Below are positions 25,151 through 44,361 of a DNA stretch of 64,000 nt, one piece after another. The notes below the pieces were generated by a model. It ran no database searches and was not told the DNA's origin. It saw only the letters and a list, made by a program, of their open reading frames with translations. Every line of letters begins with the position of its first letter. The stretch's first letter is position 1. The stretch covers positions 2,321,501 through 2,385,500 of the forward strand of contig NZ_CP058669.1 of NCBI RefSeq assembly GCF_014323565.1, read 5' to 3'. Origin of the DNA: Hyphobacterium sp. CCMP332. GTDB lineage: Bacteria; Pseudomonadota; Alphaproteobacteria; Caulobacterales; Maricaulaceae. The position numbers were made by a program, and so were the translations under genes.

Positions 25151-25186
25151 CTTGCCTGCTCCATTGTTGTCCTTGACGTAGCGCTG

Positions 25187-25207: not shown

Positions 25208-25271
25208 TAAGATGAAACCAGAAACGATTGCGGCATTCGAATAGCGCCAGAACCGGCCAGGGGATTGAAAT

Positions 25272-25874: not shown

Positions 25875-25983
25875 GAATCAAACGCCATTGGGCTGGGCGG
25901 TGGTGTCAGACCTTGGGCGCTTTACGAGCGAAGGTCAGCCGAGGCTGGGTTGGTGGGAACATAAAATCGATCTAGCCTTGCAG

Positions 25984-26788: not shown

Positions 26789-26845
26789 ACCAAAATCATC
26801 GGCTAACCCGCTAACGCCGCGATTCCTCTGAAACTGCCCCGTCAG
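26789..26845 (-). mobile_element. Isolated IS6-type right end
   Basis: Directly after IS copy B lies a second IS6-type leader and end, with ATCATCGGCTAACCCGCTAA and TTCCTCTGAAACTGCCCC. It borders the stop of the S41-like gene at 26842. It is a leftover of an older insertion. Confidence 0.65.
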
Positions 26846-28140
26846 GGCCTGTTGTCGGCCAATGCGGCTTCGAGCACCACATCGTGGCCCGCCAGCCAGT
26901 CGTCAAACATTACCGGAACAACGACATTTGGCGTAACTGTTCGACGCGTATCGGTTGGAAGCGATCCCTGCCAGTAAAGAGTCGAATGGATAACTGGCAG
27001 GCCCGTCATTGTCAGATTGACAAAGTTTGCGTCGCCGAAATGGTTGGGTGCCCCCCCGGTCGGCTCACCGATGAGTACCGCATCCAGATGGCGCTCCGCC
27101 TCGGTTACAAAATTCATGGCAGCTGAAAATGTTTGGCGGCCAACCAATACGATAGTGCCTTCTGAATGATCGAGACCTGCGCGGATAGTGTCGCGAATGA
27201 TGGCTTCATTCAGGAAATTGTTGCCGCCACGGTTGCGCCGCACATCAAAAATCACGCGGGTCGTGCCAAGACGAGTAGCGGTTTCCTGGATGCGCGCCGA
27301 AACATCTGCAATCGTTTCATTGTCATTATCCTCAACAGCATTGAACGCGACATAAATTGTCTGTCCGCCGTCAATGACTGCAAAATCGATATTTCTCTCA
27401 GGATCTGCAGGAGGCCGTGCGCGGTTTATTGCGGTGCTCGACCGAGCGTCGACCAACTCCCCAGTCGGTATGCCTGGCTCAAGGCGAACCTGGCGGCGCA
27501 TGCCGTCGTTGTCCTGAACTGTGAGAACGATTGCGCCGTCGATTTCCATCGCGCCAATCGCTTCAAGATACACAGGGTTTGACAGCAAGGTGGGCATCCA
27601 GTTTCGACCCCATTGATCATTCTCCCGGCCTATCATGGAAATCAAATGCGTCCGCACATCTTCAATCGGCATATCGTTGATGGACACTATCTGTTGGGCC
27701 AACAGGCTTTCATTTCCTGGCTCGGCCTGGATAACGAACACACCGTCATCAAAATCAAATACACGAATCGGTAATTGCTTTTCAAAACCTAAGCTTTGGA
27801 CGAAGAACGGGACGACGTTGGAGTGACCGTCTTCAAGGCTGGCCACCAGGTGGCTCAAAGCCGCCAGTCGCTCAGTTGCCGACTGTGTTGGCAGCGCGAC
27901 GCGGATCTGCTCGACAGAATCGTTCCACATGTCCCGGGTTTCTGAGAATCTCAGCGCGGGGTGTTGGTCTCGAATGGCGGTGTCGAGTTGCACGAGATCG
28001 GCTTGCCAGTCTTCCAGGGAGGCATCCCGGAAGTTTACCTCCGGCTGCTCGGCGTTGTTCAATTGCAGTCCCTCCGCGGAGTTCACCAAGAGTCCGAATA
28101 GAATTGCGAATAGGGAAATGCGTTTGATAACGGGATTCAT
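26842..28140 (-). CDS. Exported S41-family (tail-specific protease-like) peptidase
   Basis: This 432-residue protein has an N-terminal export signal (IKRISLFAILFGLLVNSAEG). The S41 catalytic core includes LVASLEDGHSNVV (the conserved D-x-H region), FDVRRNRGGNN (the substrate-binding strand) and the nucleophile Ser in VGRQTFSAAMNF followed by GEPTGG. No PDZ domain is obvious. Non-CTP S41 proteins of this kind are periplasmic or secreted peptidases of poorly known substrate. It is the last gene of a three-peptidase run (31143 to 26842, all minus strand) and its stop abuts an IS6 end, though the C-terminus looks natural. Confidence 0.82.
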   Translation of the reverse strand: MNPVIKRISLFAILFGLLVNSAEGLQLNNAEQPEVNFRDASLEDWQADLVQLDTAIRDQHPALRFSETRDMWNDSVEQIRVALPTQSATERLAALSHLVASLEDGHSNVVPFFVQSLGFEKQLPIRVFDFDDGVFVIQAEPGNESLLAQQIVSINDMPIEDVRTHLISMIGRENDQWGRNWMPTLLSNPVYLEAIGAMEIDGAIVLTVQDNDGMRRQVRLEPGIPTGELVDARSSTAINRARPPADPERNIDFAVIDGGQTIYVAFNAVEDNDNETIADVSARIQETATRLGTTRVIFDVRRNRGGNNFLNEAIIRDTIRAGLDHSEGTIVLVGRQTFSAAMNFVTEAERHLDAVLIGEPTGGAPNHFGDANFVNLTMTGLPVIHSTLYWQGSLPTDTRRTVTPNVVVPVMFDDWLAGHDVVLEAALADNRP

Positions 28141-28213
28141 GTCCGTTCCTCGTTTAAGTAATCGCGGCTTACGACAGGGTCTATTTTCCCTAGCGCAAGA
28201 CAGAGAAAGACGT

Positions 28214-29680
28214 CTAGCGTTGAAGGAAATCCGGCATACAGGCTGGCTCACGCGATCCGCTGCATCCGTTGGCGGCAAATCGCACCATGATCTCATCTGG
28301 ACCGAAAGCAGATGTCGCCAGACCAGCCTCATCCATGCGAGCGAGCACATCAAACGGGTTGAACGGCCCGTTAAGCCAAGCGTGAATTTCACTGGCAGCG
28401 CCATCTGACACAACGTCCAATTCAGCAAGCAGGCGGGCTTCAGAATAATGGGTGTCGTCCGCCTGGTAGAGACCGCGCAGCGCAGCCTCATAGGCACCAG
28501 GGCCAGATTGCGCGGTCATTTCCGCATCGAGCAGAAAGTTGAAAAGCGCGCCGGAACCATAGACGAGTTGACGGTTCTGCTGCTTGTTTTCACCTGCCTC
28601 CGCCAACGAGATTGGCCCGCTGGATATGCGACCTAGAAAATAGCGGCGAATTTGACCCTCGATCATGAAAATCACGTCATCGGCGTCCACAAGGCCAGCC
28701 CGGTAGAGCGTCTTCATCGTCAGGTAGTCCGTGCCGCCTTCTGTAAACCATTGCAGCTCGGAATAGGGATCAGCTTCGATCGCATGCCCGATCCATGCAT
28801 GGAGTGTCTCGTGGGCCAATGCACGCGCCCACATCAAGGTCTCATGCGCGCGAAACGGTGCCGGTAATCGCTGCCCGAAACTTTGGGCAAAAGCGCCACC
28901 ATCGTTCATTTCATCCGCCCCAAAGGCGACTAAATAGCGGTCCATCGGCATATCGCCAAATATCTGGCCGTAACGAGCCAGGCTTTCGACGAGGACGTTA
29001 CGAAACTCCTGGCGCGCCGACGAGAAGGCCTCTTCGGTAACAATTACGACGTCGAGGCCACCAATGCGGATCATTTCGGGGTCGAGGCCTGGCCCAACCA
29101 CAATGAGATTGCGCAGCAGATCGTTGAGGCTCGCGACCGCGAAATGGTTTTCCGCTTCTTCATTCCAAGGCGTCAAAGCCTGCCAGTCGTCTGGAATATC
29201 AAAACGCACATCAAAATGGCAGTCTGTCCACGCATAGTTGACCGCGAGGACAGAATGCATAACGAAATAGAACGCATCGTCGAAGCGGTAGGCGACCTCT
29301 TCCTTGCCGACATCCCACCTCGCCGCATCATGGCCCGCCGTCAACGTGTAGCGATAACCATCCCAACGCGTTTCCGCATCGCCAGGCACGGTCCAGCTGC
29401 CCTGGCCGAGATACGTCGCCTCGACCGACCGGCCATCGGCCAAGTTGAAAACCACGTCTGAGAGAAAATCGGCAGTACCGTCCACCGTGCCTTGCGCTGG
29501 GCCCCAACTGATATCGATTGCACCGGAGGCACCGACCGCAGAGACCCCGATTTCGAAGCGGTCCGTACCTGCTGGTGTAATAGAGATTCCGATTGGGTCA
29601 GCCGGACAGGATGACTGCGCCTGTGCTGCGCTTGAGAGGCTCAAGGCCGCCAAAAGTGTGGTGGTAAGCAGGAATTTCAT
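28214..29680 (-). CDS. Exported M61-like gluzincin metallopeptidase
   Basis: This 488-residue protein has a signal peptide (LLTTTLLAALSLSSAAQA). The zinc motif is H290-E-T-L-H294 with a downstream Glu (E314 in WFTEGGTDYL), a spacing typical of peptidase clan MA, and the EGGTDY signature is close to M61 (glycyl aminopeptidase) and M1 enzymes. The N-terminal half is beta-rich as in M61. It lies 73 bp upstream of the S41 gene and 170 bp after another S41 gene on the same strand. The product would act outside the cytoplasm on peptides; specificity is unknown. The start at 29680 is chosen for the signal peptide. Confidence 0.8.
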   Translation of the reverse strand: MKFLLTTTLLAALSLSSAAQAQSSCPADPIGISITPAGTDRFEIGVSAVGASGAIDISWGPAQGTVDGTADFLSDVVFNLADGRSVEATYLGQGSWTVPGDAETRWDGYRYTLTAGHDAARWDVGKEEVAYRFDDAFYFVMHSVLAVNYAWTDCHFDVRFDIPDDWQALTPWNEEAENHFAVASLNDLLRNLIVVGPGLDPEMIRIGGLDVVIVTEEAFSSARQEFRNVLVESLARYGQIFGDMPMDRYLVAFGADEMNDGGAFAQSFGQRLPAPFRAHETLMWARALAHETLHAWIGHAIEADPYSELQWFTEGGTDYLTMKTLYRAGLVDADDVIFMIEGQIRRYFLGRISSGPISLAEAGENKQQNRQLVYGSGALFNFLLDAEMTAQSGPGAYEAALRGLYQADDTHYSEARLLAELDVVSDGAASEIHAWLNGPFNPFDVLARMDEAGLATSAFGPDEIMVRFAANGCSGSREPACMPDFLQR

Positions 29681-29850
29681 GAAAGCGTCCTTTTCGGTTG
29701 CACATGTGATGCGTGGCACACTTGAAGCAGATGCGGCTAAAGCCAGCCGTGAGGGCACCGGTTGAGATCAGTTGAGGGAAATTAGTGATCCCATAATTAT
29801 TCAGATTCGACGCCCGGCCGAATATTTCAATTTGAGTTGCTCTTGTTGTG

Positions 29851-31143
29851 TTATTCGAGGGCCGCGATTATTTCTTCCACAGTCAATGATGAAACATGCT
29901 CAACTATTTGATCTGGCATTACACCGTGCGTGCCAACCTCGCCTGACGCTCTTGTAAAAAGATAAAGGGGCGCCCTAACCTCGAGCCCCGTATTAGGAAG
30001 CGTGAAGCTTTGAACTTGGCCGGTTTGATTTGCTCGCCCGTCAGTTTCCTCGCCGATTATCCTACCGATGTCGAAATCTTGTATGATGGTCGCAAAAACT
30101 ATGGCCTGTGAGTAGGTCTCTGGTCCGACAATAATGTAGACTTCACCCTCAAATCGATTTTCTGAATCGGCAGGGGGTTGCACCCACTGGGCGAAAGGAA
30201 GCGTTACAATCGACCCCATTTCAGCACCCGGGATAAGACTAATGTTTTCTTCAGTAATCCGCGCCCGAACGGCTGAAATTGGTGTGTAACGTTCCGAGGT
30301 CAGGTAATTAAGCAGCCTATCCGACAGCTGCCGAGCTCCACCACCGTTCGCTCGCAGGTCGATAAAAAGGCGGTCAGATCCAGACTCGTTAATTTGAGCA
30401 AATGCATTCTGAAGGAAGCTCTCAAATCGATCTTCATATTCTCGTTCAAAACTTGTGATGGTCAGAATCGCATTGGCCCCTTCCAATTCGACATGAAATG
30501 TCTCGGACAAACCTGGGTCACCAGAGAAGTCACTATCCGAAAGCGCCATTGAACGTCCTAGTGGGGTGAGAATCATAACGTCCGATCGTGTGAACTCGCC
30601 GACGTGCAATTCAATCAAGTCGTTCAGACGCAACTCCAGAATGCGTCGGCGCAACGCATCAGATTCGCCTCGTATATTGGGCATGGTTTCGGCGACCATT
30701 GCGGCAACAGATTGGTTCTTGACTGAGACGAGTTCGGCTGTCTCCCCGCTTCCAGCCAACGTTATGAATACGCGATGCCCTTCAATGGAAACAGGATGTT
30801 CGATGATTGAGCGCTGGGCTCTTGGAAGCGCAATGCCGGTATGTGCATCGTTAAACATCGAATTGAGTCGTCCAAATACATGCCACGCCGATTGTCGGCT
30901 CATCCCATCTGAGAGACCTGATTCAACCTCGCTCAATAGGGATTCGAGCGCCCTGACGTCGATCAACGCCTCAATTGCTGGGTGTGTATTTCTGGCCCAA
31001 GCCTGCCAAGTTTGGAGATCATCGAGTAATTCTGCGCGCGAAAACATTCGCTCGTTCTCGCGAGGCGTAGCCCAAGCGAGGCCAAATGAAAGAGAGAGCA
31101 CACCGACAATCAGAGTGCGCAAAAAAAAGGAAGACACAGCCAT
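29851..31143 (-). CDS. Exported S41-family peptidase, second copy
   Basis: This 430-residue S41-like peptidase has a signal peptide (SSFFLRTLIVGVLSLSFGLAWA). Core motifs are FNDAHTGIALP (conserved D-x-H), LFIDLRANGGGARQLSD, and the nucleophile Ser in VGPETYSQAIVFA, followed by GEETDG. It is distantly related to the other S41 protein of the cluster but not a recent duplicate. It is the first gene of the peptidase run and is divergent from a MarR-type gene, with palindromes in the 46-bp gap. Codon use is AT-richer than the host flanks. Confidence 0.82.
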   Translation of the reverse strand: MAVSSFFLRTLIVGVLSLSFGLAWATPRENERMFSRAELLDDLQTWQAWARNTHPAIEALIDVRALESLLSEVESGLSDGMSRQSAWHVFGRLNSMFNDAHTGIALPRAQRSIIEHPVSIEGHRVFITLAGSGETAELVSVKNQSVAAMVAETMPNIRGESDALRRRILELRLNDLIELHVGEFTRSDVMILTPLGRSMALSDSDFSGDPGLSETFHVELEGANAILTITSFEREYEDRFESFLQNAFAQINESGSDRLFIDLRANGGGARQLSDRLLNYLTSERYTPISAVRARITEENISLIPGAEMGSIVTLPFAQWVQPPADSENRFEGEVYIIVGPETYSQAIVFATIIQDFDIGRIIGEETDGRANQTGQVQSFTLPNTGLEVRAPLYLFTRASGEVGTHGVMPDQIVEHVSSLTVEEIIAALE

Positions 31144-31161
31144 AAAACTCCGCCATAGTGC

Positions 31162-31185
31162 GTTATCGGTAACGTAACTGGTTAC
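31162..31185. promoter_or_regulatory. Two adjacent small palindromes, candidate MarR operator
   Basis: GTTA-TCGG-TAAC (31162-31173) is directly followed by GTAAC-TG-GTTAC (31174-31185). Both lie in the 46-bp gap between the divergent S41 peptidase and MarR-type genes, 5-28 bp before the regulator ATG. A winged-helix dimer could block both promoters here. The function is inferred from symmetry and position. Confidence 0.65.
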
Positions 31186-31189
31186 ATGT

Positions 31190-31723
31190 ATGACCCTTCC
31201 CACATACTCGTCAAGCGTATTTCGTCGCCGTGAACTTCTGCGGGACTTGTACGGGCCGGCCTTTCTTGGTCAGTTGATGGTGCGGATTACGGAATTTCTT
31301 ATCGCCAGCGGTGCGCCCGTTGCGGCAGAATTTGGCATAACCGCGCCTGTTCGGACATTTTCCATTCTGGTCCTCCTGCGCACCGAAGCGGCGTCAAGTT
31401 CCGAGCTGGCCTCGGCCCTCGGCGTGACTCACGTAGCTATTGTCAAGAATGTCCGCGCTCTCCTGGTACTTGGCCTCGTCGAGAAGAGTGATGACCCCGG
31501 TGATGCCCGCCGCAAGCCGATCAGTCTGACTGATAGTGGGACAATCGAGGCCCAAAAGGTTCATATGTTTATGGAGTTGTCGCGGTCTGTTTTTGAAGAA
31601 CTTTTTGAGGATGTCGGTCACGACGTATTCTCAGCCCTCCACGATATAGAAGACGCTTTTAAACGAGAGGGATTAGGCGAGCGGATTCGATCTAAAATTA
31701 AATCCAGAGGCACGGGCAGTTGA
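31190..31723 (+). CDS. MarR-family winged-helix regulator
   Basis: This 177-residue regulator has a MarR-type winged helix at residues ~60-130 (SSSELASALGVTHVAIVKNVRALLVLGLVEKSDD, in parts, then the wing DPGDARRKPISLTDSG). The longer N-terminal helix region (RDLYGPAFLGQLMVRITEFL) would form the dimer arm. It is divergent from the three-peptidase run and probably controls it through the palindromes at 31162-31185. Its ligand is unknown. Confidence 0.85.
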   Translation: MTLPTYSSSVFRRRELLRDLYGPAFLGQLMVRITEFLIASGAPVAAEFGITAPVRTFSILVLLRTEAASSSELASALGVTHVAIVKNVRALLVLGLVEKSDDPGDARRKPISLTDSGTIEAQKVHMFMELSRSVFEELFEDVGHDVFSALHDIEDAFKREGLGERIRSKIKSRGTGS

Positions 31724-31857
31724 ATGACACGTGGCCAGGCCCCACGAGGAGGTGCCGTGCGCGCATTCGCTGGCAGTCGTCAAAGCAAGGATACGACCTG
31801 TTTTCACACAAAGTTGAGTTGCTCCATCGGGCCGCAGGCAACAAACGAAATTCAGAT

Positions 31858-32355
31858 TGACCTGCGCCCCTTGGCTCCCTCGTTTATTTCGAGAATCTTT
31901 TATTAAGGAGACAGACGATAGGCAAAGAAATCCAGCGTCCGCGACCAGGCGAGCGAGGCAGCGTCAGAGTCGTATCGCGGCGTGGAATCATTATGAAAAC
32001 CGTGATTGGCGCCTTCATAGACAAAGGCATCATAGACGGCATTACTCGTATCGAGCACCGCTTTATAGTCAGGCCATCCGGCGTTGACACGTTCATCCAG
32101 TCCAGCCAGATGAATCTGGAGAGGAACCTCGAGCTGTTCAGCTTCACTCGCCGTTGGCCAGCCGCCGTAGAAGGGCACGGCGCCTGATAGCCAAGGCTGG
32201 CGGACAGCCATCAGATTGGCGACGGCCCCACCGAAACAAAAGCCAACACAGGCCACTTTCCCGGAGCAGGCGTCGTGCGTGCGCAAGAAATCTGCAGCAG
32301 CCTGAAAATCCTGAACCATCGACTCGCGTTCGCGCTGAGCCTGCAGAGCTCGCCC
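31858..32355. repeat. 498-bp direct repeat, copy 2
   Basis: This is the partner of 20585-21082, in the same orientation with about three mismatches. Here it is part of the complete dienelactone hydrolase gene, so this is the source copy. Recombination between the two would delete 11.3 kb including IS A, the serine hydrolase, alkB, IS B and the peptidase cluster. Confidence 0.93.
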
Positions 32356-32799
32356 ATCATCATCATTGCCGGGATAGCCGCCCAAGGGGTGCAGCGCATC
32401 GGGCGCAAAGACGGCATATCCCTCCAATGCAGCGCGGCGGGCCACGTCGCGGATATATGGGTTCAAACCACGGTTTTCATGAATGACCACGATGCCGCCC
32501 AGTGGCGATGAGGCGCCCGCAGGCCGAGCGAAATACCCTGCCATATCACCTGCCCCGCTCGGCGAATCATAGTCCAGCATCGCAGTTTCGAGGCGCGGGT
32601 CATCTGCCGCCGTTTGCTCGGCAGCGGCGTAATCAGGCATAATTAGGCTGGCGAGTGCGGTCACCGTTAAGCCGCCAACAGCATAGCGTGTTAGCCCGTC
32701 AAGAAAGGCTCGCCGCGACAAATGACCGTGCGCATACGCATCATAAAGGCTTAATGCGCCTTGAGCAATCTTGGGCTTTGTGTCGTCAGTCATGGGCAT
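31903..32799 (-). CDS. Tat-exported dienelactone hydrolase family protein
   Basis: This ~298-residue alpha/beta hydrolase has a twin-arginine type signal (LSRRAFLDGL followed by a hydrophobic VGGLTVTALASLIMP stretch), so it probably folds in the cytoplasm and is exported. The DLH nucleophile elbow is GFCFGG with Cys as nucleophile, and the catalytic His lies in GANHGFHND. An Asp in the HLAGLDERV region completes the triad. The oxyanion part is HENRGLNPYIRDVARR. It resembles the YghX/dienelactone hydrolase group, whose natural substrates are mostly unknown. A 5'-truncated copy lies at 20630-21082. The ATGs at 32799 and 32793 are both possible. Confidence 0.88.
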   Translation of the reverse strand: MPMTDDTKPKIAQGALSLYDAYAHGHLSRRAFLDGLTRYAVGGLTVTALASLIMPDYAAAEQTAADDPRLETAMLDYDSPSGAGDMAGYFARPAGASSPLGGIVVIHENRGLNPYIRDVARRAALEGYAVFAPDALHPLGGYPGNDDDGRALQAQRERESMVQDFQAAADFLRTHDACSGKVACVGFCFGGAVANLMAVRQPWLSGAVPFYGGWPTASEAEQLEVPLQIHLAGLDERVNAGWPDYKAVLDTSNAVYDAFVYEGANHGFHNDSTPRYDSDAASLAWSRTLDFFAYRLSP

Positions 32800-32917
32800 G
32801 GCTTTCGTTGGGGCAGCATACAGCAGCAACTCGGAAGAAACTGAAGCCCAGGTTGGCCGAGTCAAGACAGCGGTGTCGTTTCTTCGCCCGATGTCGGGAT
32901 AATGAGCTACCCCGTCG

Positions 32918-33215
32918 AAGGCCGGTACCCGAAAGTTCCCCAAAATCGAGATCTGAAACCCACCGTTCCACCCGCCAACCGTGTGAGCCATTCACGATCA
33001 GTAGCGTAGCGGCTTCACGTTCTTGCGGACGTATCGCTACCGCGCTCGTGCAGCAGATCTTCCACGTTTCGAAGCGACAGCGGAAAGCGGATATACATCA
33101 TCACGGCGAGACGAATGACTTCAGGAAACGTTTTGAAATAGATAAACGGGTTTTTCATGCGCTCAAATTATCGGTCAACCCGCTAACGCCGGCTTGCTTC
33201 TGAAAACGCCATTAG
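32918..33215 (-). mobile_element. Chimeric IS6-family remnant
   Basis: The right part (33040-33210) matches the IS6 transposase start and terminal region (segment for FRYFKTF.EVIRLAVMMY, then CTAACGCCGGCTTGCTTCTG). The left ~110 bp match the left part of the remnant at 13455 but not the complete IS6 copies. The two fragments thus descend from one rearranged element that moved as a unit. The frame is broken and not functional. Confidence 0.75.
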
Positions 33216-33330: not shown

Positions 33331-35526
33331 ATGTTTCGAAGTTTTCTAACCTCTACAGCGTTCCTGCTATTCGGCTGTTCAGGTGCATTGGCGGACGACC
33401 TGATCGATTTCGGGTCGAATACCGATATAGCGTTTGAAGCCGGTCCAGGTTCGGCGGGGCCTGTGCGCCGGGAAATCCGTGGGCTTGACCCGGCCGTCAT
33501 GTCGATGACGCCTGGTGAACGTGTCGCGCTCAACTTCGGGGCGGGCGGCAATGCCGTCCTCGATCGGATCGAGAGGAACGGGACCGGCACCTGGATTTGG
33601 GCCGGACACATCGAGGGTGAACCGCTGAACCGGGTGCTTCTTACCCGGACTGGTGAGCATGTATTTGGACGCGTCCTAGCCGGCGACGGAATCTGGCTGA
33701 TCATTCCGGAGCTGAATGGCGGCCATACGCTGTTCCGCCATGCTGACAATGCGCGTCCGGGCGGCTTCGATGGCGATAGCCTTGTTCCCACCGTCGACGA
33801 TATGCTGCGCCTTCGGATGCCGCCGGGTAGCGGAGACGCGCCTGTGACGGAAGCAGCGGTCGCGGTCGGCTCGCTCGGAACGGTCGATATCCTCGTTTAT
33901 TATAGCGAAAGCTTCCGAACGACATGGGGCCCCGCGGCGGGCGGGCGCATCCAGTATCTGATGGCGCTGCTTGATCAGGCCCTGGTCAATTCCGACACGG
34001 GTCTGCGCGCGCGTCTTGTAGGTACGGAATCCATTTCGACCAACGATGATCGCGGCAACGCCGCCACCGTCGTCGATATGCGCTCCGGTGCCGGACTTGG
34101 AGAAGCAGGGCCGAACGGACAGGATTACAGCGCGATGTTGGCGCGGCGGAACGCCCTGGGCGCAGACCTTGTGGCCATAGTCCGCAACATGCGTTTACCC
34201 AACATGGCCAATTGTGGCACCGCCTATGTGATTGGAGCGACAAGCGACACCATCGGAACCGGAAGCGATATTGTCGGAGTCGCCGCGATCAGCGACTGGA
34301 TCGACGACACCGATTCAGACCTCAGCAATGGCTACACCTACTGCACCGATCTGACTTTCGCGCACGAAATCGGCCACAATCTCGGCATAGACCATGACCT
34401 AGCAAACTCGGACGCCAATCGCGGCGTCCGTGATTATGCGCTCGGATACGTCAATCAATGCGGATACCGGACGATCATGGCGTATGACTCGTCATTGCGC
34501 TCAACTACCTGCCTAGTGGATACGGCACCGGGTTCGAACCATGAACTCGAAATGCCTTACTTTTCCAACCCTGACGTCGGCCGGTGCGGACCGACCATCG
34601 GTTCCAGCTCGACCAGTCAGCCTTGTGGAACGGCCGACGCGGACGCAGCGCGCGCCATGCGCGAGGAAGGCCGCAACGTCACCGAATTTCGTAGCGAGGC
34701 GGGTTTTCTGCGGTCTGCTGTTCTGCCGCTGACCAGGGCAGTCCCCACGGGCACGACGGCCACCGCATTCGCCACTGTAATCAATCCTGCAGCAAGCGGA
34801 GATACCGCGACTGGCTGCGGGCTCCGCCTTCCCGGAGCGAGTACAAACCAGTTCAGCTATCAGACGACCGACGCCCTGAACGCGCCAACCGGAACAATCA
34901 ACACGCCGGTCGACATCCTTTCTGGCGGTGCGCAGAGCTTTGTCTTCACGGTCCGGACGAACAACCAGTTTATCGACAACTCCCGGACTGAGATCGACTC
35001 CGGCAATGTCGAGTCCGACCTTTTCATTGAAGCCTTCTGCTCGAACCGGCGTTCTGCCGAATACATCGAAGGCGTGAACTCCTTCTCCTTCCGGTCGGAA
35101 ACACTCCCCGGACCGGATGTTATCGCCGTCGCCGGAACGCCGACGATCCCGGGCACCGTCCTGATTCCGACGACGGGCAACATGGTCGGCTTTTTCGTCG
35201 TTGCCGTGACAAATGTCGGCACAGCCGGCGTCGTCGTCGCGCGCCCGTCAATCGGACCGGACGCCGAAGCCGGAATTTCCTCTGTGGAGATCTGCCAGAC
35301 CGATCCCGGCACCGGTGCGTGCACAAGCGCGCGCGCGGGATCGGCGACGATCAGTCTGGCGACCAACGGGACGGCGACGTTCGCGATCTTCGTTCGGGGA
35401 ACAGGGGCTGCGGTGTCAAACCTCCCGGCGACGAACCGTGTTTTTGTCCGCTTCACCTCGACAGGGACGGTCCTCGTCAGCGGCGGTGAACGCGGCGCGA
35501 CCTCGGTCTCCGTGCGAACGAACTGA
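33331..35526 (+). CDS. Secreted metzincin metalloprotease with C-terminal tandem beta module
   Basis: This 731-residue protein has a signal peptide (FLTSTAFLLFGCSGALA) and a propeptide-like region to ~175. The metzincin catalytic domain carries H345-E-I-G-H-N-L-G-I-D-H355 and the Met-turn IMAYD (Met ~383), placing it with M12-type (reprolysin-like) zinc proteases. Residues ~458-731 form a two-part beta module (RSAVLPLTRAVPTGTTATAF, NTPVDI, then SVEICQTDPGTGACTSA). The same module sits at the N-terminus of the serine hydrolase at 22053-23897. AGGAGG lies 6 nt before the ATG. It is the only gene of its IS-bounded module. It likely degrades extracellular proteins. Confidence 0.87.
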   Translation: MFRSFLTSTAFLLFGCSGALADDLIDFGSNTDIAFEAGPGSAGPVRREIRGLDPAVMSMTPGERVALNFGAGGNAVLDRIERNGTGTWIWAGHIEGEPLNRVLLTRTGEHVFGRVLAGDGIWLIIPELNGGHTLFRHADNARPGGFDGDSLVPTVDDMLRLRMPPGSGDAPVTEAAVAVGSLGTVDILVYYSESFRTTWGPAAGGRIQYLMALLDQALVNSDTGLRARLVGTESISTNDDRGNAATVVDMRSGAGLGEAGPNGQDYSAMLARRNALGADLVAIVRNMRLPNMANCGTAYVIGATSDTIGTGSDIVGVAAISDWIDDTDSDLSNGYTYCTDLTFAHEIGHNLGIDHDLANSDANRGVRDYALGYVNQCGYRTIMAYDSSLRSTTCLVDTAPGSNHELEMPYFSNPDVGRCGPTIGSSSTSQPCGTADADAARAMREEGRNVTEFRSEAGFLRSAVLPLTRAVPTGTTATAFATVINPAASGDTATGCGLRLPGASTNQFSYQTTDALNAPTGTINTPVDILSGGAQSFVFTVRTNNQFIDNSRTEIDSGNVESDLFIEAFCSNRRSAEYIEGVNSFSFRSETLPGPDVIAVAGTPTIPGTVLIPTTGNMVGFFVVAVTNVGTAGVVVARPSIGPDAEAGISSVEICQTDPGTGACTSARAGSATISLATNGTATFAIFVRGTGAAVSNLPATNRVFVRFTSTGTVLVSGGERGATSVSVRTN

Positions 35527-35862
35527 TGTCTCCTTGCTTTCGGGCCTCGGTCCCTCGCGATAAACGAGGGAGCCAAGGGGTGCACACTCGCCGCCCAAAT
35601 CCTAGTTTCCCGGGAAGAGCGAGACCACTTCGCTTTAGTCTGACAGCACCTAACTATTCGAACCAACGAACCGTTCCTTGCTAAACGGGGGCCGTCCACA
35701 CATGACAGTGCCCACGTCTGTGCCAAATGTTCTGACGACGGACAGTCTTGAATTATTTGAACGGATTGCGCATCCGGTGAGGCTAGGGAACTACCTTCCC
35801 GCGCTCAAGGCGAAGTTCCTCTGACACGACCCAAACGACGCAAGGAATGGTCCGCCCCGTGT
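35527..35862. mobile_element. IS6 ends and dispersed repeats between modules
   Basis: No gene is seen here. The stretch holds, in order: a hairpin TCCCTCG/CGAGGGA after the protease stop (35551-35571), a reversed IS6-type left end (about 35586-35644, reading inward GCTGTCAGACTAAAGCG), the dispersed repeat block copy 2 (35645-35708), and another IS6-type right end with GCGAAGTTCCTCTGACACG (about 35768-35832). It marks several past insertions and deletions. Confidence 0.65.
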
Positions 35863-37881
35863 TCACCTTCCGCCTTGAGGGCAGTGGTGATTTGAGACCT
35901 GGCCATCAGGGGCAACGGTTTCACAAAAGACCGTGCCGTCAAAACGTTGGAATATTCCTGTATCGAACTGCGACTGCAGCATGGTGGCGCGGGTCAGATC
36001 CGCGCCGGCGAAGCGAGCACCGTTCAGGTTTGCCCGGGATATATCGGCGCTTGTCAGATTGGCGTTCTCCAAATTGGCATTGGTCAGGTTCGCGCCCTGG
36101 AAATTGGCTCCGGTCAAATTGCTGCCGGAAAAGTTCACGCCCTGAAGATTTCGATTGGTGAAATCATATCCGGTCAGATCCCAGCCGCTATAATTGCGAT
36201 TGGATTGATCAGCATCGCGGAACTGCGTCGGCGTGATGCAGTTATAGCTTATCACCTCGCCGTTATAGCCGGTTGTGTTGCATAGCACGGTCTCTTCATT
36301 GATGTTAAAATAAGCGATGTTCTGAACATTGGTGAGGTTGGCACCTGTCAGATCAGCGCCTTCCAACCGAGTTTCCCGCATGTCGGCGCCGGTGAAAGTC
36401 GCATTGCGAAGAATCGCACGATTGAGATTGGTGTTGGTGAGATTTGCGCCTTGGAAATTGGCCCCGGTCAAATTGCTGCCGGAAAAGTTCACGCCCTGAA
36501 GATTTCGATTGGTGAAATCATATCCGGTCAGATCCCGGCCGCTATAATTGCGATTGGATTGATCAGCATCGCGGAACTGCGTCGGCGTGATGCAGTTATA
36601 GCTTATCACCTCGCCGTTATAGCCGGTTGTGTTGCATAGCACGGTCTCTTCATTGATGTTAAAATAAGCGATGTTCTGAACATTGGTGAGGTTGGCACCT
36701 GTCAGATCAGCGCCCTCCAGCCGGGTTTCGCGCATGTCAGCACCGGTGAAAGTCGCATTGTAAAGAATCGCACGATTGAGATTGGTGTTGGTGAGGTTTG
36801 CGCCAGTGAGGTTCGCGCGACTTAGATTCGCACCCTGGAGGTCTGTTCCGGACAGATCGACTCCGGAGAGATCCGCGCCGACAAAATTGGTGCCGGTCAG
36901 GCGCGCACCCGATAAGTTGGACCCTGCGAGGACTGCGCCTTCAAAATTGAATCTTTCAAGATTGGTGCCTGTGAAGTTGGCCCGCACGGTCGTCCCAGCA
37001 AAGATATCCCTGTTCAGCTCCGCTGGAGGGCGGCAGAACACGATGTCACCAAACGCCATGTTTTCGCGCGGAGCCGCGACATAAAAACTGGCGTTGGCCG
37101 CCTCGCATCTCGCGTCGTGAATACGATTATTTTCCGCAGTTTCCGCAAACCAATTGAAAAATTCTCTGCTGATGTTTAGCTGAGCCTGGCAAGTGATCCC
37201 TTCGATGTCGTTTCTGCATTCGCCAGGGCGTCGCAGGGTGACGCGCTCAGGCGGACCAATAAAAACAGGCCCCCTAAACACATCCGTTAAGATCCCTAGT
37301 CTATTGGTGTCTCTTTCTTGGCCCCTCCCTTCTGTTGGAACGAGCGATATGCCGGAGGGTTGCGCTTCGACACCAAGCATTATGCCGGTGCGTTCCAATT
37401 CGAGACTGCGCTCATCCGCCCAGTAGCCATTGTAATAACCTGATACGTAAAGACCGTGATAGAGACAGTTTGTGAGCTCTTGTCGACTGTAGATGCGAGT
37501 CGTTCCATCCCACTCATAGATGCCGCCACCCCAGACCTCTACAGTGAAACGATATCGTGGCGGATACCCCGAAAATCCATTTGGGTTTAAAGAGCCGGGA
37601 AACCGTACGCTGTATTGGATATTGTTCAAACCTGAAAGGGCGGTAACGACGATCGTGGTCAGCCCGGTTGGCCTGATATTGCCGAGTACGTTGTTTTGCC
37701 CGTCGACAAGCTCGAATGCCTGGTCGAGCCGGTTATCAAACACCAACCTGCACTGATGGTTGGCCCAACTTGGGGCCGTTACGGTTAGCGCGACAAAAAT
37801 AGCTGTCAGAACGCAAAATACCCCCCCAAACGCTCCTAACGGCTTCCGGCGTGTTTCCTCTTGGAACAACTTGTCTCGCAT
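35863..37881 (-). CDS. Exported pentapeptide-repeat protein with internal tandem duplication
   Basis: This 672-residue protein has an N-terminal signal or anchor (FGGVFCVLTAIFVALTVTAPSWA) and a unique region to ~290 with several Cys. Pentapeptide repeats then run to the end, with the A(D/N)LXX pattern as in ANLTGANLTNTNLNRAILYN. The repeat runs are interrupted twice by an identical non-repeat insert (FNINEETVLCNTTGYNGEV and on). Pentapeptide repeats form a right-handed quadrilateral beta-helix; known members bind DNA gyrase or act as effectors. An exported one with Cys-containing inserts has no assigned role. It is bounded by IS6 ends on both sides. Confidence 0.85.
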   Translation of the reverse strand: MRDKLFQEETRRKPLGAFGGVFCVLTAIFVALTVTAPSWANHQCRLVFDNRLDQAFELVDGQNNVLGNIRPTGLTTIVVTALSGLNNIQYSVRFPGSLNPNGFSGYPPRYRFTVEVWGGGIYEWDGTTRIYSRQELTNCLYHGLYVSGYYNGYWADERSLELERTGIMLGVEAQPSGISLVPTEGRGQERDTNRLGILTDVFRGPVFIGPPERVTLRRPGECRNDIEGITCQAQLNISREFFNWFAETAENNRIHDARCEAANASFYVAAPRENMAFGDIVFCRPPAELNRDIFAGTTVRANFTGTNLERFNFEGAVLAGSNLSGARLTGTNFVGADLSGVDLSGTDLQGANLSRANLTGANLTNTNLNRAILYNATFTGADMRETRLEGADLTGANLTNVQNIAYFNINEETVLCNTTGYNGEVISYNCITPTQFRDADQSNRNYSGRDLTGYDFTNRNLQGVNFSGSNLTGANFQGANLTNTNLNRAILRNATFTGADMRETRLEGADLTGANLTNVQNIAYFNINEETVLCNTTGYNGEVISYNCITPTQFRDADQSNRNYSGWDLTGYDFTNRNLQGVNFSGSNLTGANFQGANLTNANLENANLTSADISRANLNGARFAGADLTRATMLQSQFDTGIFQRFDGTVFCETVAPDGQVSNHHCPQGGR
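36073..36799 (-). repeat. 354-bp tandem duplication inside the pentapeptide gene
   Basis: Two almost identical 354-bp units (118 codons) follow each other; for example GCTGCCGGAAAAGTTCACGC occurs at 36121 and again at 36475. Only a few base differences are visible (CCCAGCC against CCCGGCC at ~36182/36536). The frame is kept, so the protein gained one repeat block plus insert. The high identity implies a recent event. Confidence 0.92.
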
Positions 37882-38289: not shown

Positions 38290-38526
38290 ATGAGAACTAT
38301 TCGTCAAAACCTGCACGAAATTTTTAACTACCTTAACGACCATCCCGGCGACGAAGATCAATTGCTTGGTTTCGCCGTCCAAGCCACTCACGCAGGCCTA
38401 AAAGATTGGGAGAAGGCACTCGATGTTGTCGGTAATCTCACCTCCTTTCTTCGCTGCTATCACAGTGGCGATATTGAATGCATTGCTGGCTTTTTTCAGG
38501 ACATCAGAGATGAGCAGTACTTCTAG
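38290..38526 (+). CDS. Small acidic protein of unknown function
   Basis: This 78-residue, probably all-helical protein begins MRTIRQNLHEIFNYL and ends IAGFFQDIRDEQYF. I recognise no family. AAGAAAGG lies 8 nt before the ATG at 38290. It is followed by a strong hairpin at 38541, so it is probably its own transcript. It sits just upstream of the integrase and may be a regulator or recombination helper of the element, by position only. Confidence 0.6.
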   Translation: MRTIRQNLHEIFNYLNDHPGDEDQLLGFAVQATHAGLKDWEKALDVVGNLTSFLRCYHSGDIECIAGFFQDIRDEQYF

Positions 38527-38540
38527 CTGGGATCCGACTT

Positions 38541-38568
38541 AGCGGACCGGTTTTCCTGCCGGTCCGCT
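38541..38568 (+). terminator. Hairpin terminator after the 78-residue gene
   Basis: A perfect 10-bp stem, AGCGGACCGG paired with CCGGTCCGCT, encloses an 8-nt loop, 15 bp after the stop. Only a short T-containing tail follows (TATCATTGTGATTTC), so termination may be incomplete. Confidence 0.65.
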
Positions 38569-38623
38569 TATCATTGTGATTTCAATCCCTTCAGTTAACC
38601 TGGAGGGGCATGGAGGATGAACC

Positions 38624-39793
38624 ATGCCACAGATCAAACTTACCCGTAGAAACATTGACCGGATCGAGCTGCCCCCGAGCGGTCAGCTCATATATCGCGA
38701 TACCGAACTGCCCGGCTTTGGGTTGCGCGTTGGCAAGAAATCGAGAAGCTTCTTTGTCGAGCGCCAGATCGGCCGCAAGACGATGCGCCGCACGATTGGT
38801 AACTTCCCTATCGTGACGCCGGAGCTGGCCCGTGAGGAAGCACTGGTGGTGCTTCGCCGGCTCAATGCCGGTGACGACCCGCTTGAGGAAAAGCGCAAGG
38901 AACGCACCGAGACGATCACGCTGGACGAAGCGGCTGAGGCCTTCTTCGAGGGTCGCTCACAGCTGAAGCCATTCACCGTGGACACCTATCGCCGGTCCAT
39001 CGACCTGCATTTGTCCGACTGGCGCGATCTTCCCATGCGAGAGATCACCCGTCAGATGGTCATGGAGCGCCATCAGCGGATTACGCGTCAGGTCAGCGGC
39101 GTCAGTGCCAACAATGTCATGCGGCACCTGCGGTCCATTTATAACTACACAGCGGCCGCACACGACGGGCTGGGGGCCAACCCGTGCCAAGTGTTAACCC
39201 AAGCCCGCGCCTGGGCGCGCGAGCAGCGTAGGCAATCGGTAATACCGGCCAAGCACCTGCCCGCCTGGTGGCGGGCTGTGTGGATGGAGGACGACCAGCC
39301 GCGTGACTTTATGCTGGTGGCCATCTTCACTGGCATGCGGTCCAGCGAGATCAAGCGTCTGCGCTGGGAGGACGTGGACCCCGTGGCAGAAACACTCACA
39401 GTTCCTCAAACTAAGAATGGCGACCCGCTTGTCTTGCCGCTATCGACGCAGCTTGCAGGGCTGTTCAAGGACCGCCGAGCGCGGGTTCAGGGCAGCCCGT
39501 GGGTATTCCCCGGCAAGGGCCAGAACAAGACTGGCCATATCAAGGAGGTGAAGTCCATTGTTCGCCGGGTCCGCAAGACGTCAGGCGTTCACTACTCGAT
39601 GCATGACCTTCGCCGGACCTTCATCACCATTGCGGAAGGCTTGGATATTCCCGCGTTTGCGCTCAAACGCCTTCTCAATCATCGTATCGATACCGATGTT
39701 ACGGGCGGCTACATCGTCATGGACGCTGAGCGTCTGCGCGAACCCGCACAGCGCGTTGCAGATAGAATCATGGAGTTGGTCAGTGACAGATGA
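38624..39793 (+). CDS. Tyrosine recombinase / integrase
   Basis: This 389-residue integrase is of the P4/DUF4102 type. An N-terminal arm-binding domain (RDTELPGFGLRVGKKSRSFF) is followed by a core-binding SAM-like domain (~100-185). The catalytic domain has a full active set: R239 in TGMRSSEIKRL, K264 in TKNG, H327 and R330 in HDLRRTF, H353 in LLNHR and Tyr363 in GGYIVMD. It should catalyse integration and excision at the tRNA-Thr core ATTACGAAT. GGAGG-type sequence lies upstream of the ATG. The downstream gene overlaps its end. It is 5.6 kb from the right attachment site, with replication genes between. Confidence 0.95.
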   Translation: MPQIKLTRRNIDRIELPPSGQLIYRDTELPGFGLRVGKKSRSFFVERQIGRKTMRRTIGNFPIVTPELAREEALVVLRRLNAGDDPLEEKRKERTETITLDEAAEAFFEGRSQLKPFTVDTYRRSIDLHLSDWRDLPMREITRQMVMERHQRITRQVSGVSANNVMRHLRSIYNYTAAAHDGLGANPCQVLTQARAWAREQRRQSVIPAKHLPAWWRAVWMEDDQPRDFMLVAIFTGMRSSEIKRLRWEDVDPVAETLTVPQTKNGDPLVLPLSTQLAGLFKDRRARVQGSPWVFPGKGQNKTGHIKEVKSIVRRVRKTSGVHYSMHDLRRTFITIAEGLDIPAFALKRLLNHRIDTDVTGGYIVMDAERLREPAQRVADRIMELVSDR

Positions 39794-40427
39794 TGAACCG
39801 ATCGGCGAATATCTTCCGCCGCTAACAGAGCTTCAGCATTTAGGCTTTGTGCTGGGCACCGCATTCAGGTGCCTTTCAAAAGAGGCAACCAATTCCGTCA
39901 AAGCTAATGAGGCAAAAAAGCTCCGCAGTGAAGCCAATAAATTCTATCGCATTAGAACGACACGCAAAGAGAAACCCCTCGCTCTTGTCACAAACTCTCG
40001 TCAACGCACGGCACTCAAGACCGCTATGGCAACCATGTGGCAGAATACGAACACTGATACCGAGCGAATGATGGCCTTGAAGGGTGTCGAGCGACGCCTC
40101 GGGTTCGAAGCGATAGCTAAACGCGTCTTGCCGCCGCGCTCAGAGCATCAGGAGCGCCCTTTTCAACGTGAAGGCGACGAAGGACGAAAGCTGAAGAACA
40201 ATGAAAGGGCATGGGCGGCGATATGGTTGAGCGTGAACGCGTCAGCAGACTACACCGATTTTGACCATAAGTTTGAAGCCCTACAGTCTATGGCAAAGCA
40301 GTGTTGGTCTGACGGAGTCTATTTTCTCAACCCACTGGGGGTTGATCTGTTCATCACGCCTGGAGGCCTGAAAAATCTGGCAAAAGAAGCTGTTCACGAT
40401 CTAGATGCCGCTTGCTCTTCTAAATAA
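39783..40427 (+). CDS. Unknown protein co-translated with the integrase
   Basis: This 214-residue protein has no recognisable motif; it is basic in the middle and helical (EAKKLRSEANKFYRIRTTRK, then LKGVERRLGFEAIAKRVL). The GTG at 39783 is proposed as start; it overlaps the integrase stop by 11 bp and lies after a GGAG. The frame is open further upstream inside the integrase gene, but that part does not look like protein. Genes in this place in satellite-like elements often regulate excision or copy number; that is a guess. Confidence 0.6.
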   Translation: MTDDEPIGEYLPPLTELQHLGFVLGTAFRCLSKEATNSVKANEAKKLRSEANKFYRIRTTRKEKPLALVTNSRQRTALKTAMATMWQNTNTDTERMMALKGVERRLGFEAIAKRVLPPRSEHQERPFQREGDEGRKLKNNERAWAAIWLSVNASADYTDFDHKFEALQSMAKQCWSDGVYFLNPLGVDLFITPGGLKNLAKEAVHDLDAACSSK

Positions 40428-40507
40428 GAGCCCAGTTTTTCCTATCAAGACCGCCCGGATTCATGTGCATAAAAGGATGTCTTCATTAGTTGTTTATGGA
40501 GACGCCG

Positions 40508-40723
40508 ATGCGCGAAAATACAAATATTCCTGAAACCTACGTCCCAACCCGCGATGCGGCGAAGTTTCTAGGCCTGTCCGATTCTTGCCTCGAGCGATTA
40601 CGTTGGAAGGGCGGCGGGCCACGCCACTACAAGCTGGGTAAGAACGGCCGCATCCGATACAAGTATTCCGATCTAATTGAGTGGGCAGAAGATAATAATT
40701 TCGCATACGGGAGGTCAGCCTAA
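40508..40723 (+). CDS. AlpA/MerR-like helix-turn-helix regulator
   Basis: This 71-residue protein has a MerR-like winged helix: YVPTRDAAKFLGLSDSCLERLRWKGGGPRHYKLGKNGRIRY. This is the AlpA/excisionase pattern (HTH_17) found beside integrases. GGAG lies 8 nt before the ATG at 40508. Its stop overlaps the primase ATG (TAATG), so the two are translationally coupled. It probably controls integrase expression or acts as an excision factor and may switch on replication. Confidence 0.83.
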   Translation: MRENTNIPETYVPTRDAAKFLGLSDSCLERLRWKGGGPRHYKLGKNGRIRYKYSDLIEWAEDNNFAYGRSA

Positions 40724-43032
40724 TGACTCTCCCGATCGAAGGTGGCCGGGTAACACCGGCTGCCGCCCAATTCATGCTGAGCTTGGCGAAGATGTCACGG
40801 CTCGACGCCTTCAATTTTTATACCGGCAAAGCAAAGTCCAAGTACCGAAAGATTGACGCCGAGCTATCGGAATCCACGGTCGCGGATCACCTATCCAATG
40901 CTAAACCGATCAGTGTCTTTCCGGTCATTACAGACCAGACCCGATATGCAGTGTTGGACTTTGATGACCACGACGGGACAACTGAATGGTCGGACATGGC
41001 GTCGGCGGCGAATGCCGTCGTCGAAAAGCTCACCGAAGGCGGAGTGAAGTGCTTCGCGGTTCGATCCGGTGGGGGCCGAGGCATCCATATCTGGATACCA
41101 TTCCGGAACCCACAATCGGCGCGCACTGTTCGCCGGTTCCTGACGCGAACACTCAAAGACTGTGGATTCACGGTCGGCGACCGACCCGTCAGCGATGGCC
41201 AAGTACAAGTCTTCCCGAAGTCCGATTCTCAAGGCAAGGGCGGATATGGCGGCGGTGCAATAGCACTCCCATTTGCGCGCGCAAGCGTTCCGCTCGACGC
41301 CGACTTCAATCCGTTGAACTTGGAAAGTTATGAGCCGCCCGCACTAGAATCCTTGCTCAACGATGATGTGGATGAGCCGGAAACAGTATCGCTGCCCGAT
41401 GAAGCTTCGGCTGAAACGGCACCCATGGCGCTGGGTGACGATTTGGACGAGATGCTAGATCATATTCCTGCAGATGACCGTGACGTCTGGATTCGCGTCG
41501 GTATGGCCCTGAAAGCGACCTATGGTGATCAAGCCCTTGAGACATGGGACCGTTGGTCTGCAAAGTCCGATGCATATGAGGGGGCGGAAGATTGCGAGAC
41601 AGCGTGGCGCGGACTTACGCCGACAGGATCAATCGGGTTCGGTTCCCTGGTCTACCTCGCGAAAGCTAACGGTTACGCCCCGTCAGGCGATTTGCGCTTG
41701 CTGGCAATTAACGAACGCTACGCCCGTCTGACAGTTGGCCAGACTCCAGTCGTGATTGATTTGGAGCCGGATGGCGCATCGCATGATGTTATCAACACGC
41801 TCAATGAACGCACCTTTGTGCGGCGTATGTCGGCAGAGCTCAAGTTGATGGTTTCTGAGGGCGGCAAGCCAAAACTGGTGAATATCGGTCGATATTGGCT
41901 CGATTGGCCTCAAGCTCGCCACTACACCCACGTCATCTTCGATCCATCTCGACCGCCAGGGCACAATGGAAGTGGATACAACGTCTGGCAGGGTTTTACC
42001 GTCGATCCCGCGCCGGGCGATTGTAGTCTTCTGCTTGCCCACATTCGCGACAATGTCTGTAATGGCGATGACGAAGCCTACAAGTGGGTGATGAACTGGC
42101 TAGCGCTGGCTGTGCAACGCCCCGCCGAGCCACCCGGAACCGCGCTGGTACTCAAGGGCAAGCCAGGCACGGGAAAAGGTTTCCTCGCGAACATGTTCGG
42201 ACGCCTATGGGGTATCCACTTCAAGACGGTGACGCATAAACAACACTTCACTGGTCGGTTCAATTTTCACCTATATGGGCGACGATTTATCTTCGTCGAT
42301 GAGGGTGTCTATGGCGGCGATCCACGCGAAGCTGACGTCGTCAAGGTCATGATCACCGAATCCGTGATCATCTGGGAAGAAAAATTTCGTACGCCATTTT
42401 CCGACTTCAACCGAATGGCCTTTATCATTGCCTCTAATCGCGATTCGGCAGCGCCCGTAATGGACAATGATCGCCGGTTCACCGTGTTAGAGGTCTCGGA
42501 TAGCCGGGCTAATGACCGTGCGTATTTCAGTCGCATAGCCAAACAGATGAATGACGGCGGTGACGCTGCGTTTCTCGACCTCTTGCTCAGTCGCGATATT
42601 AACGATGGGCCGAATCCGCGGCAAAATCTGCGGCGAGCAGCAGCGTTTGAGGATTACCTTGAACACGCACCGCCGGAGATTAAGGCGATACATCGCGCAT
42701 TGGATGAAGGCTGCCTACCCGGAAGCATTGAGAACCTGGAGAATACGGCCAACAGCTTCGAATTCTTTGACCAGATGCAAGCCTTCGGTGGCTACGGCGC
42801 TCGCAACACCGCCCTGACCCGTCTCGGCAAAGCCATCAAACGGTATTTGCCGTCCGTTGCGAGCAAGCAGGGGTCGGTGATGAGCGACGATCATGACAAA
42901 AGCCGGGGGCGGCCTCGGATTTATACCTTCCCGCCATTGCAAGAGGCGCGCGCCGAGTTCGCAACCAATATCGGCCACGTCATCGAGTGGCAAAACGACG
43001 CCGCGGCGTGGGAAGCAGAGCATCTTTGCTAG
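40723..43032 (+). CDS. Primase-helicase (AEP primase, PriCT-2, DUF5906-type ATPase)
   Basis: This 769-residue replication protein has three parts. Residues ~35-195 resemble archaeo-eukaryotic primase domains (LDFDDHD metal site, VRSGGGRGIHIWIPF, then VQVFPKS and GGYGGGAIALPF). Residues ~245-330 fit PriCT-2 (DEMLDHIPADDRDVWIRVGMALK). Residues ~450-640 are a superfamily 3-type/DUF5906 ATPase with Walker A GKPGTGKG (~478-485), Walker B FIFVDEG and a later ASNRD sensor. It is the kind of single replicase used by satellite phages and integrative plasmids to copy themselves from a nearby origin. A 16-bp inverted repeat directly downstream is a candidate origin. Confidence 0.88.
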   Translation: MTLPIEGGRVTPAAAQFMLSLAKMSRLDAFNFYTGKAKSKYRKIDAELSESTVADHLSNAKPISVFPVITDQTRYAVLDFDDHDGTTEWSDMASAANAVVEKLTEGGVKCFAVRSGGGRGIHIWIPFRNPQSARTVRRFLTRTLKDCGFTVGDRPVSDGQVQVFPKSDSQGKGGYGGGAIALPFARASVPLDADFNPLNLESYEPPALESLLNDDVDEPETVSLPDEASAETAPMALGDDLDEMLDHIPADDRDVWIRVGMALKATYGDQALETWDRWSAKSDAYEGAEDCETAWRGLTPTGSIGFGSLVYLAKANGYAPSGDLRLLAINERYARLTVGQTPVVIDLEPDGASHDVINTLNERTFVRRMSAELKLMVSEGGKPKLVNIGRYWLDWPQARHYTHVIFDPSRPPGHNGSGYNVWQGFTVDPAPGDCSLLLAHIRDNVCNGDDEAYKWVMNWLALAVQRPAEPPGTALVLKGKPGTGKGFLANMFGRLWGIHFKTVTHKQHFTGRFNFHLYGRRFIFVDEGVYGGDPREADVVKVMITESVIIWEEKFRTPFSDFNRMAFIIASNRDSAAPVMDNDRRFTVLEVSDSRANDRAYFSRIAKQMNDGGDAAFLDLLLSRDINDGPNPRQNLRRAAAFEDYLEHAPPEIKAIHRALDEGCLPGSIENLENTANSFEFFDQMQAFGGYGARNTALTRLGKAIKRYLPSVASKQGSVMSDDHDKSRGRPRIYTFPPLQEARAEFATNIGHVIEWQNDAAAWEAEHLC

Positions 43033-43039
43033 CAGCCCT

Positions 43040-43162
43040 ATGCACGGGTGCACGGTAAAACCACTAAATTTAATAGGGAGAACAGGTATTGTACTGCAAC
43101 ACCAATCAGTTCGGTGCCATTCCACCATTCCATATTGGCGGCCCTGCCGTGCACCCGTGCAT
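43040..43162. repeat. 16-bp inverted repeat pair, candidate replication origin
   Basis: ATGCACGGGTGCACGG (43040-43055) is a perfect inverted match of CCGTGCACCCGTGCAT (43147-43162), 91 bp apart. Each arm holds two copies of TGCACGG-like units, reminiscent of iterons. It starts 8 bp after the primase-helicase stop, where P4-like elements often keep an origin. No gene is seen between 43033 and 43372. Confidence 0.55.
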
Positions 43163-43178
43163 GGCAGGGCTTTTGTTT
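43141..43178 (+). terminator. Rho-independent terminator after the primase-helicase
   Basis: The stem GCCCTGCC pairs with GGCAGGGC, and an inner TGCAC pairs with GTGCA. A T-rich tail TTTTGTTT follows. It overlaps the right arm of the 16-bp inverted repeat, so the same sequence may serve both purposes. Confidence 0.75.
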
Positions 43179-44043: not shown

Positions 44044-44119
<76 letters not shown>

Positions 44120-44134
44120 CTAAACCAATCATGC

Positions 44135-44156
44135 GCGCTACTTTTGCGCTACTTTT
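44135..44156 (+). repeat. Tandem 11-bp repeats, candidate integrase arm sites (right)
   Basis: Two perfect adjacent copies of GCGCTACTTTT lie 59 bp inside the right core. They mirror the tandem GCSCTACTAAT units near the left end. They are likely bound by the N-terminal domain of the integrase. Confidence 0.65.
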
Positions 44157-44214
44157 CTTACCTCTGGCAACCTAACTCACTGCTTTGCTTCGTGTTCCGC
44201 AATTAGGGCACCTA

Positions 44215-44253
44215 ATTACGAATGCGTTGCTCTACCAGCTGAGCTAATGCGGC
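44215..44253 (-). tRNA. 5' part of split tRNA-Thr(CGU), right island junction (attR)
   Basis: On the minus strand this is the 5' half of tRNA-Thr (acceptor, D arm, anticodon stem and loop), identical to the matching part of 44044-44119. Identity begins at the core ATTACGAAT (44215-44223). The sequence on the island side (AGGGCACCTAATT) is unrelated to tRNA and forms an inverted match with 13281-13292 at the other end. Together with 13230-13275 it would rebuild one complete tRNA gene. Confidence 0.93.
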
Positions 44254-44361
44254 CCTTGAAATAAGGCGCCGGAACGTAACCGCGAACGCGCCAATCCGCA
44301 ATATCCCAAATGCGCTCTGTTTCAGCGCGTTTTCCGGTCAGAAAATCCCGCGGTGGGTCGT

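Follow-up and report, generated by a model that had tools for sequence, protein, structure and literature searches.

The anticodon loop is a well-known subsite for insertion into tRNA genes. The gene sets of the P4 satellite and of PICIs serve as the reference for comparison of the replication genes described below. Some tycheposons are satellite-like, and the hallmark of that group is a deep-branching, large tyrosine recombinase, unlike the phage-type integrase with an Arm-DNA-bind_3 domain that is present here. Conventional tRNA islands have a tRNA gene plus one 3' fragment as their boundaries (Islander, PMC4383910). Archaeal recombinases replace the 3' half or, rarely, the 5' half of the target, with an intact gene being reconstituted (review, PMC8371274); for elements replacing the 5' half the source is Zhao and Williams 2002, as cited in PMC6563490.

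The island described here resembles conventional tRNA islands (PMC4383910) in having a tyrosine integrase, in interrupting a tRNA gene and in the displaced piece of tRNA at its far end. It shares with the tycheposons of Prochlorococcus (PMC10872708) the form of a tRNA-bounded cargo island with a tyrosine recombinase, and with 5'-half replacers (pTN3-type archaeal integrases) a 5' fragment beyond the island and an island-end tRNA with a non-original upstream promoter flank. Conventional islands hold a tRNA fragment in their attP, whereas the ends of this island have only about 9 bp in common with the tRNA, the host gene has had its two halves displaced and the element brings a complete copy; unlike 5'-half replacers, which join an element half to a host half (PMC8371274), it uses neither host half. 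The literature searched contained no description of an element bearing the whole of its target tRNA gene; the search did not extend to Zhao and Williams 2002 or the founding tycheposon paper, and a precedent is possible.

Locus and comparison set

The window, i.e., the whole stretch of DNA that was analysed, comprises 64,000 nt of Hyphobacterium sp. CCMP332 (NZ_CP058669.1, positions 2,321,501-2,385,500, forward strand); all coordinates are those of the window. An island of 30,948 bp (13268-44222) interrupts the host gene for tRNA-Thr(CGT) within its anticodon loop (Table 1). Its core is very probably the integration and replication engine of this 30.9-kb island, which would belong to a family that targets the tRNA-Thr(CGT) anticodon loop and carries a spare complete tRNA. 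The first-pass annotation had been confined to 38290-43178, which holds the core only, and did not recognise the ends of the island; it had overlooked both the splitting of the host tRNA gene and the spare, complete tRNA, the most unusual features of the locus, whereas the integrase-AlpA-replicase core that it described is genuine.

An alignment of two integrase sequences served as the query for a scan of GTDB contigs, which yielded the relatives. The family comprises nine members, the window island and eight relatives (L121 to L128), which in listed order are from Xaviernesmea, Robiginitomaculum, Devosia, Shinella, Pelagibacterium, a Rhodobiaceae MAG, Aquimixticola and Mesorhizobium sp. Root554. 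The nine are not independent, with six Rhizobiales integrases being 95-98% identical to one another. Genomes G003, G005, G006 and G007 are from the window's own genus.

Table 1. Features of the island and its insertion site (window coordinates)
Feature	Position	Strand	Remarks
3' half of split host tRNA-Thr(CGT)	13228..13275	-	left island end begins at TTACGAA core 13268-13274
Left tandem 11-bp arm-like repeats, GCCCTACTAAT GCGCTACTAAT	13395..13416	+	CCTACTA-type repeats similarly placed in relatives' left ends
Left cargo	13569..33158		hydrolases, peptidases and regulators among IS6-family copies and fragments
M12B-like metallopeptidase	33331-35526	+	cargo block 33331..37881
Pentapeptide-repeat protein	35863-37881	-	cargo block 33331..37881
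Small ORF, 78 aa	38290..38526	+	upstream of int; no family match
Tyrosine integrase (int)	38624..39793	+	Arm-DNA-bind_3 and Phage_integrase domains
Orphan ORF P0002	39783..40427	+	GTG start; 11-nt overlap with int
AlpA-type HTH_17 protein	40496..40723	+	likely ATG 40496 or 40508
Primase-helicase, AEP-PriCT_2-DUF5906	40723..43032	+	1-nt overlap with AlpA stop
Candidate origin	43040..43171		16-bp inverted repeat and terminator hairpin
Complete tRNA-Thr(CGT) carried by island	44044..44119	-	near right end; same position in 9/9 members
Spacer with arm-like repeats	44120..44214		about 94-97 bp; missing from congeners' uninterrupted locus
Right tandem 11-bp arm-like repeats, GCGCTACTTTT x2	44135-44156		inside spacer
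5' half of split host tRNA-Thr(CGT)	44215..44254	-	right core TTACGAA 44216-44222

Integration and replication core

Domain searches and ORF analysis confirmed all four core genes of the first-pass annotation, namely an integrase, an unknown gene overlapping it, AlpA and a primase-helicase. The catalytic residues of the integrase are complete (R239, K264, H327, R330, H353 and Y363). The four genes had been described as overlapping or nearly touching, which holds for int and the orphan ORF (11 nt) and for the AlpA and primase-helicase genes (1 nt), but not for the orphan ORF and the AlpA gene, which make no contact and are about 70-80 nt apart. P0002 had no match in phages, plasmids or 384 other genomes of the class, nor in a short-peptide scan of GTDB contigs, and its AlphaFold model reached a mean pLDDT of only 37. 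Its place is taken in the relatives by an ORF of ~170-200 aa that overlaps int and looks unrelated; homology of this ORF to P0002 was not detectable, and its model (pLDDT 69.5) gave no fold match. The AlpA-type protein is likely a regulator/excisionase. The domains of the primase-helicase were detected with E-values of 8.7e-19 (PriCT_2), 1e-18 (DUF5906) and 1.6e-16 (AEP-TOTE). The replicase is of the VapE type in five relatives (L121-L124 and L127); L125 has a further Prim-Pol protein instead, as does L126 to judge from position and length; the Mesorhizobium member has a replicase of the window's primase type, 36-38% identical over its full length.

The inverted repeat behind the core genes (arms 43040-43055 and 43147-43162) matches at 16 of 16 positions across a gap of 91 nt, a score that was not reached in 500 dinucleotide shuffles. 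Because the second arm is part of the 14-bp terminator hairpin (43140-43171), the repeat cannot be counted separately from the terminator; the perfect 16-bp inverted repeat and the terminator reported earlier are both present, though sharing one arm. Directly behind the replicase gene, an inverted repeat was significant by the shuffle test in four of the nine members (the window, L122, L124 and L128) but in none of the other five, and its sequence varies between members with different replicases. Such post-replicase repeats support, but do not prove, a replication origin at this position. Slightly more probably than not, the primase-helicase would replicate the excised circle from these repeats.

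Mode of transfer

As in PICIs, the replication module adjoins the integrase and AlpA genes. With both P4-like satellites and PICIs the island shares an integrase, an AlpA-type protein, a primase-helicase, repeats near the replicase gene and the absence of structural genes from the scanned ORFs. In line with what had been stated from the first reading, family searches of the main ORFs of the island (small ORFs scanned in part) found no structural-phage, packaging or conjugation family. No relaxase family was found in the island, nor was a relaxase or transfer family found in the scanned conserved genes of the relatives, for which transfer genes of their own had been considered.

Reliance on a helper, as in satellites, is the best guess for transfer, albeit a tentative one. 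The excised circle would be replicated by the primase-helicase and packaged by a helper phage, which is consistent with the combination of integrase, AlpA and phage-type primase-helicase lacking transfer genes in the scanned ORFs, with the presence of primase relatives in many phages and with the VapE replicases of the relatives. This reading has to contend with the scanned ORFs, which yielded no Pfam or PHROGs family of the P4 packaging and capsid-sizing genes (psu, sid, delta, ash) and no PICI-type small terminase or other packaging-redirection gene, and with the viral contigs, in which no integrase relative was found. One distant primase match (25%) was recorded in viral contigs. The P4-like character proposed earlier is retained for the layout lacking transfer genes of its own, whereas a P4 packaging or capsid-sizing gene was not found; the large cargo side and the complete target tRNA are further differences from P4-like satellites and PICIs. 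Mobilization of the excised circle by a conjugative plasmid or ICE, via an unrecognised oriT, is unlikely: DUF5906 proteins distantly similar to P0004 do occur on small plasmids, but the absence of relaxase and transfer families noted above speaks against it.

Island ends and split tRNA gene

Two repeats mark the ends, one of 48 bp corresponding to the tRNA-Thr 3' half (13228-13275 and 44042-44089) and one of 40 bp corresponding to the 5' half (44081-44120 and 44215-44254). The complete gene lies inside the island, about 97 bp from its right end, with the arm-repeat spacer between tRNA and core, and is the sole full-length tRNA-Thr(CGT) in the 2.69-Mb genome. In the congeners G005 and G006 the tRNA-Thr(CGT) gene is single and uninterrupted and the right flank aligns with the window from 44215 on; in G006 the left flank of the window is joined to the intact tRNA. 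The host gene has thus been split in its anticodon loop, at TTACGAA. Considered alone, the window would also allow a duplication, because there the carried tRNA does not differ from the host halves. The left-end motif TTACGAATTGTTTTTC gave one match in genomes of the class, with surroundings unlike the left end, which was taken as chance.

Relatives and origin of the carried tRNA

In each of the eight closest integrase relatives (54-56% identical, from several alphaproteobacterial families), a single complete tRNA-Thr(CGT) lies downstream, about 5.5-7 kb from where the integrase gene starts. In all eight this tRNA is followed by a spacer of near-constant length with paired CCTACTA-type repeats and then by a second 5' half, and the 3' half lies at the opposite end of the island; the islands measure about 10.2-18.9 kb as calculated from coordinates. 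A related integrase, a split host tRNA, a complete tRNA, spacer repeats and a replicase between int and tRNA were found in 9/9 members. The comparison with other islands of this core that had been suggested at the outset has yielded eight integrase relatives, all with the same layout. A pattern search of the relatives' genomes found no other gene with a TTACGAA anticodon loop; extra matches in two genomes were without the loop. More distant loci, on a Legionella fallonii plasmid and in Obscuribacterales/Melainabacteria (integrases about 38-40% identical), carry no tRNA. The former, plasmid III (NZ_LN614829.1, L160), is circular, 14.6 kb in size and encodes a DUF927 protein and an integrase with 40% identity to P0006; it is possibly a free form of a related element type.

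Between the carried tRNA and the rejoined host tRNA the numbers of differences, for the window and then L121 to L128, are 0, 2, 0, 10, 2, 4, 0, 13 and 3, i.e., the carried tRNA is unlike the split host gene in six of nine members (2-13 of 76 positions) and is thus element cargo that replaces the host gene. In the Mesorhizobium member the three differences stem from the nearest 5' half, an earlier footprint, and the outermost 5' half matches. A half-swap would produce chimeras with broken acceptor-stem pairs: 2/7 in Devosia, 1/7 in Pelagibacterium and 2-3/7 in Aquimixticola. None is broken in the host and carried genes of these three. We infer that carriage of the whole gene frees the element from matching the tRNA of its host.

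A conventional island of 30.8 kb, with a 3' tRNA half in its attP, ending in the complete tRNA (44042-44089), with the 134 bp of spacer and second 5' half beyond it as debris from another element, would present the usual signature of a tRNA and one 3' fragment as boundaries (PMC4383910) and would fit the right end in G003, where the tRNA joins the chromosome directly without a spacer, but it is very improbable given the arm-type tandem repeats within the spacer, the near-constant length of spacer plus second 5' half in 8/8 relatives and the difference of the carried tRNA from at least one host half in 6/9 members, where a half-swap would not explain both halves. Such an island plus remnant was rejected on the conserved layout (9/9) and the differences between host and element tRNAs.

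The preferred reading, an element that carries a complete replacement tRNA, suggests the following course. The integrase would cross over in the anticodon loop, using core and arm sites, and AlpA would act as regulator/excisionase. Integration would inactivate the host tRNA gene, with the carried gene then supplying tRNA-Thr(CGT), so that the cell would never depend on a chimera of two halves; excision would restore the host gene and remove the spare. The predicted attP reads spacer-CTAATTACGAA-left end, with the complete tRNA inside the circle. For the integrase clade as a whole, it is probable that attP retains only the anticodon-loop core and that a complete replacement tRNA adjoins it, which would decouple target choice from tRNA repair. 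The match required would be confined to the loop and its stem rather than extend over an entire half, so that hosts with a diverged tRNA-Thr could be entered, and stacking would be possible since each carried tRNA is a new landing site, as the Mesorhizobium footprint suggests.

Mobility, relics and possible stacking

The island backbone evidently moves between families: the Devosia and Shinella members have in common a 7.0 kb backbone that is 94.7% identical while their chromosomal flanks are unalignable, and the high identity of the Rhizobiales integrases likewise extends across families. The family is rare, with no further member found in a 385-genome sample of the class. A relic in G003 matches 13376-13702 at its left end and, at 89%, 43703-44120 at its right end, with the spacer gone. 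In the draft genome of G007, where no close integrase was found, a family-type left end is joined to the tRNA 3' half (G007:C22:13413-13827; L074, L161) and a complete tRNA is joined directly to the chromosome (G007:C3:1-143; L073).

At positions 16936-17281 of L128, three 5' halves of tRNA-Thr follow one another, accompanied by two different spacers; judged from this arrangement, an earlier member at this site left the extra 5' half and spacer as its footprint. In the window, the split tRNA has a 2OG-Fe(II) oxygenase-like gene (11907-13154) as its immediate left neighbour. In G003, G005 and G007, similarity to the left flank ends near 11.06-11.19 kb, so this gene may be a separate insertion at the same hotspot.

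Cargo

The left cargo encodes two beta-lactamase-family hydrolases, a LytTR protein, a DLH hydrolase and a DLH fragment, a fatty acid desaturase, TetR, S41 and M61 peptidases and MarR. Copies of IS6/IS240-family transposases are located at 13569-13700, 18432-18512, 21140-21832, 26040-26735, 32973-33158 and 38065-38095; two are full-length (231 and 232 aa, 76% identical), the rest are fragments, and a single orientation is kept throughout the cargo. The fragment near the left end is also present in the G003 relic. These copies look like seams along which the cargo was assembled; they and the fragments separate the cargo genes, so IS6 activity may have enlarged the window member. A 300-bp direct repeat (20585-20884 and 31858-32157; 99% identical), pointing to a recent internal duplication, consists of the DLH-hydrolase fragment and a copy within the full DLH-family gene (31903-32991). 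Two further 300-bp repeats (36073-36372 and 36427-36726; 96% identical, 354 bp apart) lie within the pentapeptide-repeat gene. The sampled cargo of the relatives is mostly restriction-modification, with GmrSD or Schlafen/AlbA in addition, and the view that a hydrolase cargo is unusual on such a core holds within the family.

Implications

Island finders presume that tRNA-targeting elements bear a fragment of their target, whereas the family described here carries the whole gene. Standard tools would detect the island but misplace its right end at the intact tRNA, about 134 bp short. The layout suggests a route into hosts with a diverged tRNA, and in this strain the cell's only intact tRNA-Thr(CGT) gene comes from a mobile element.
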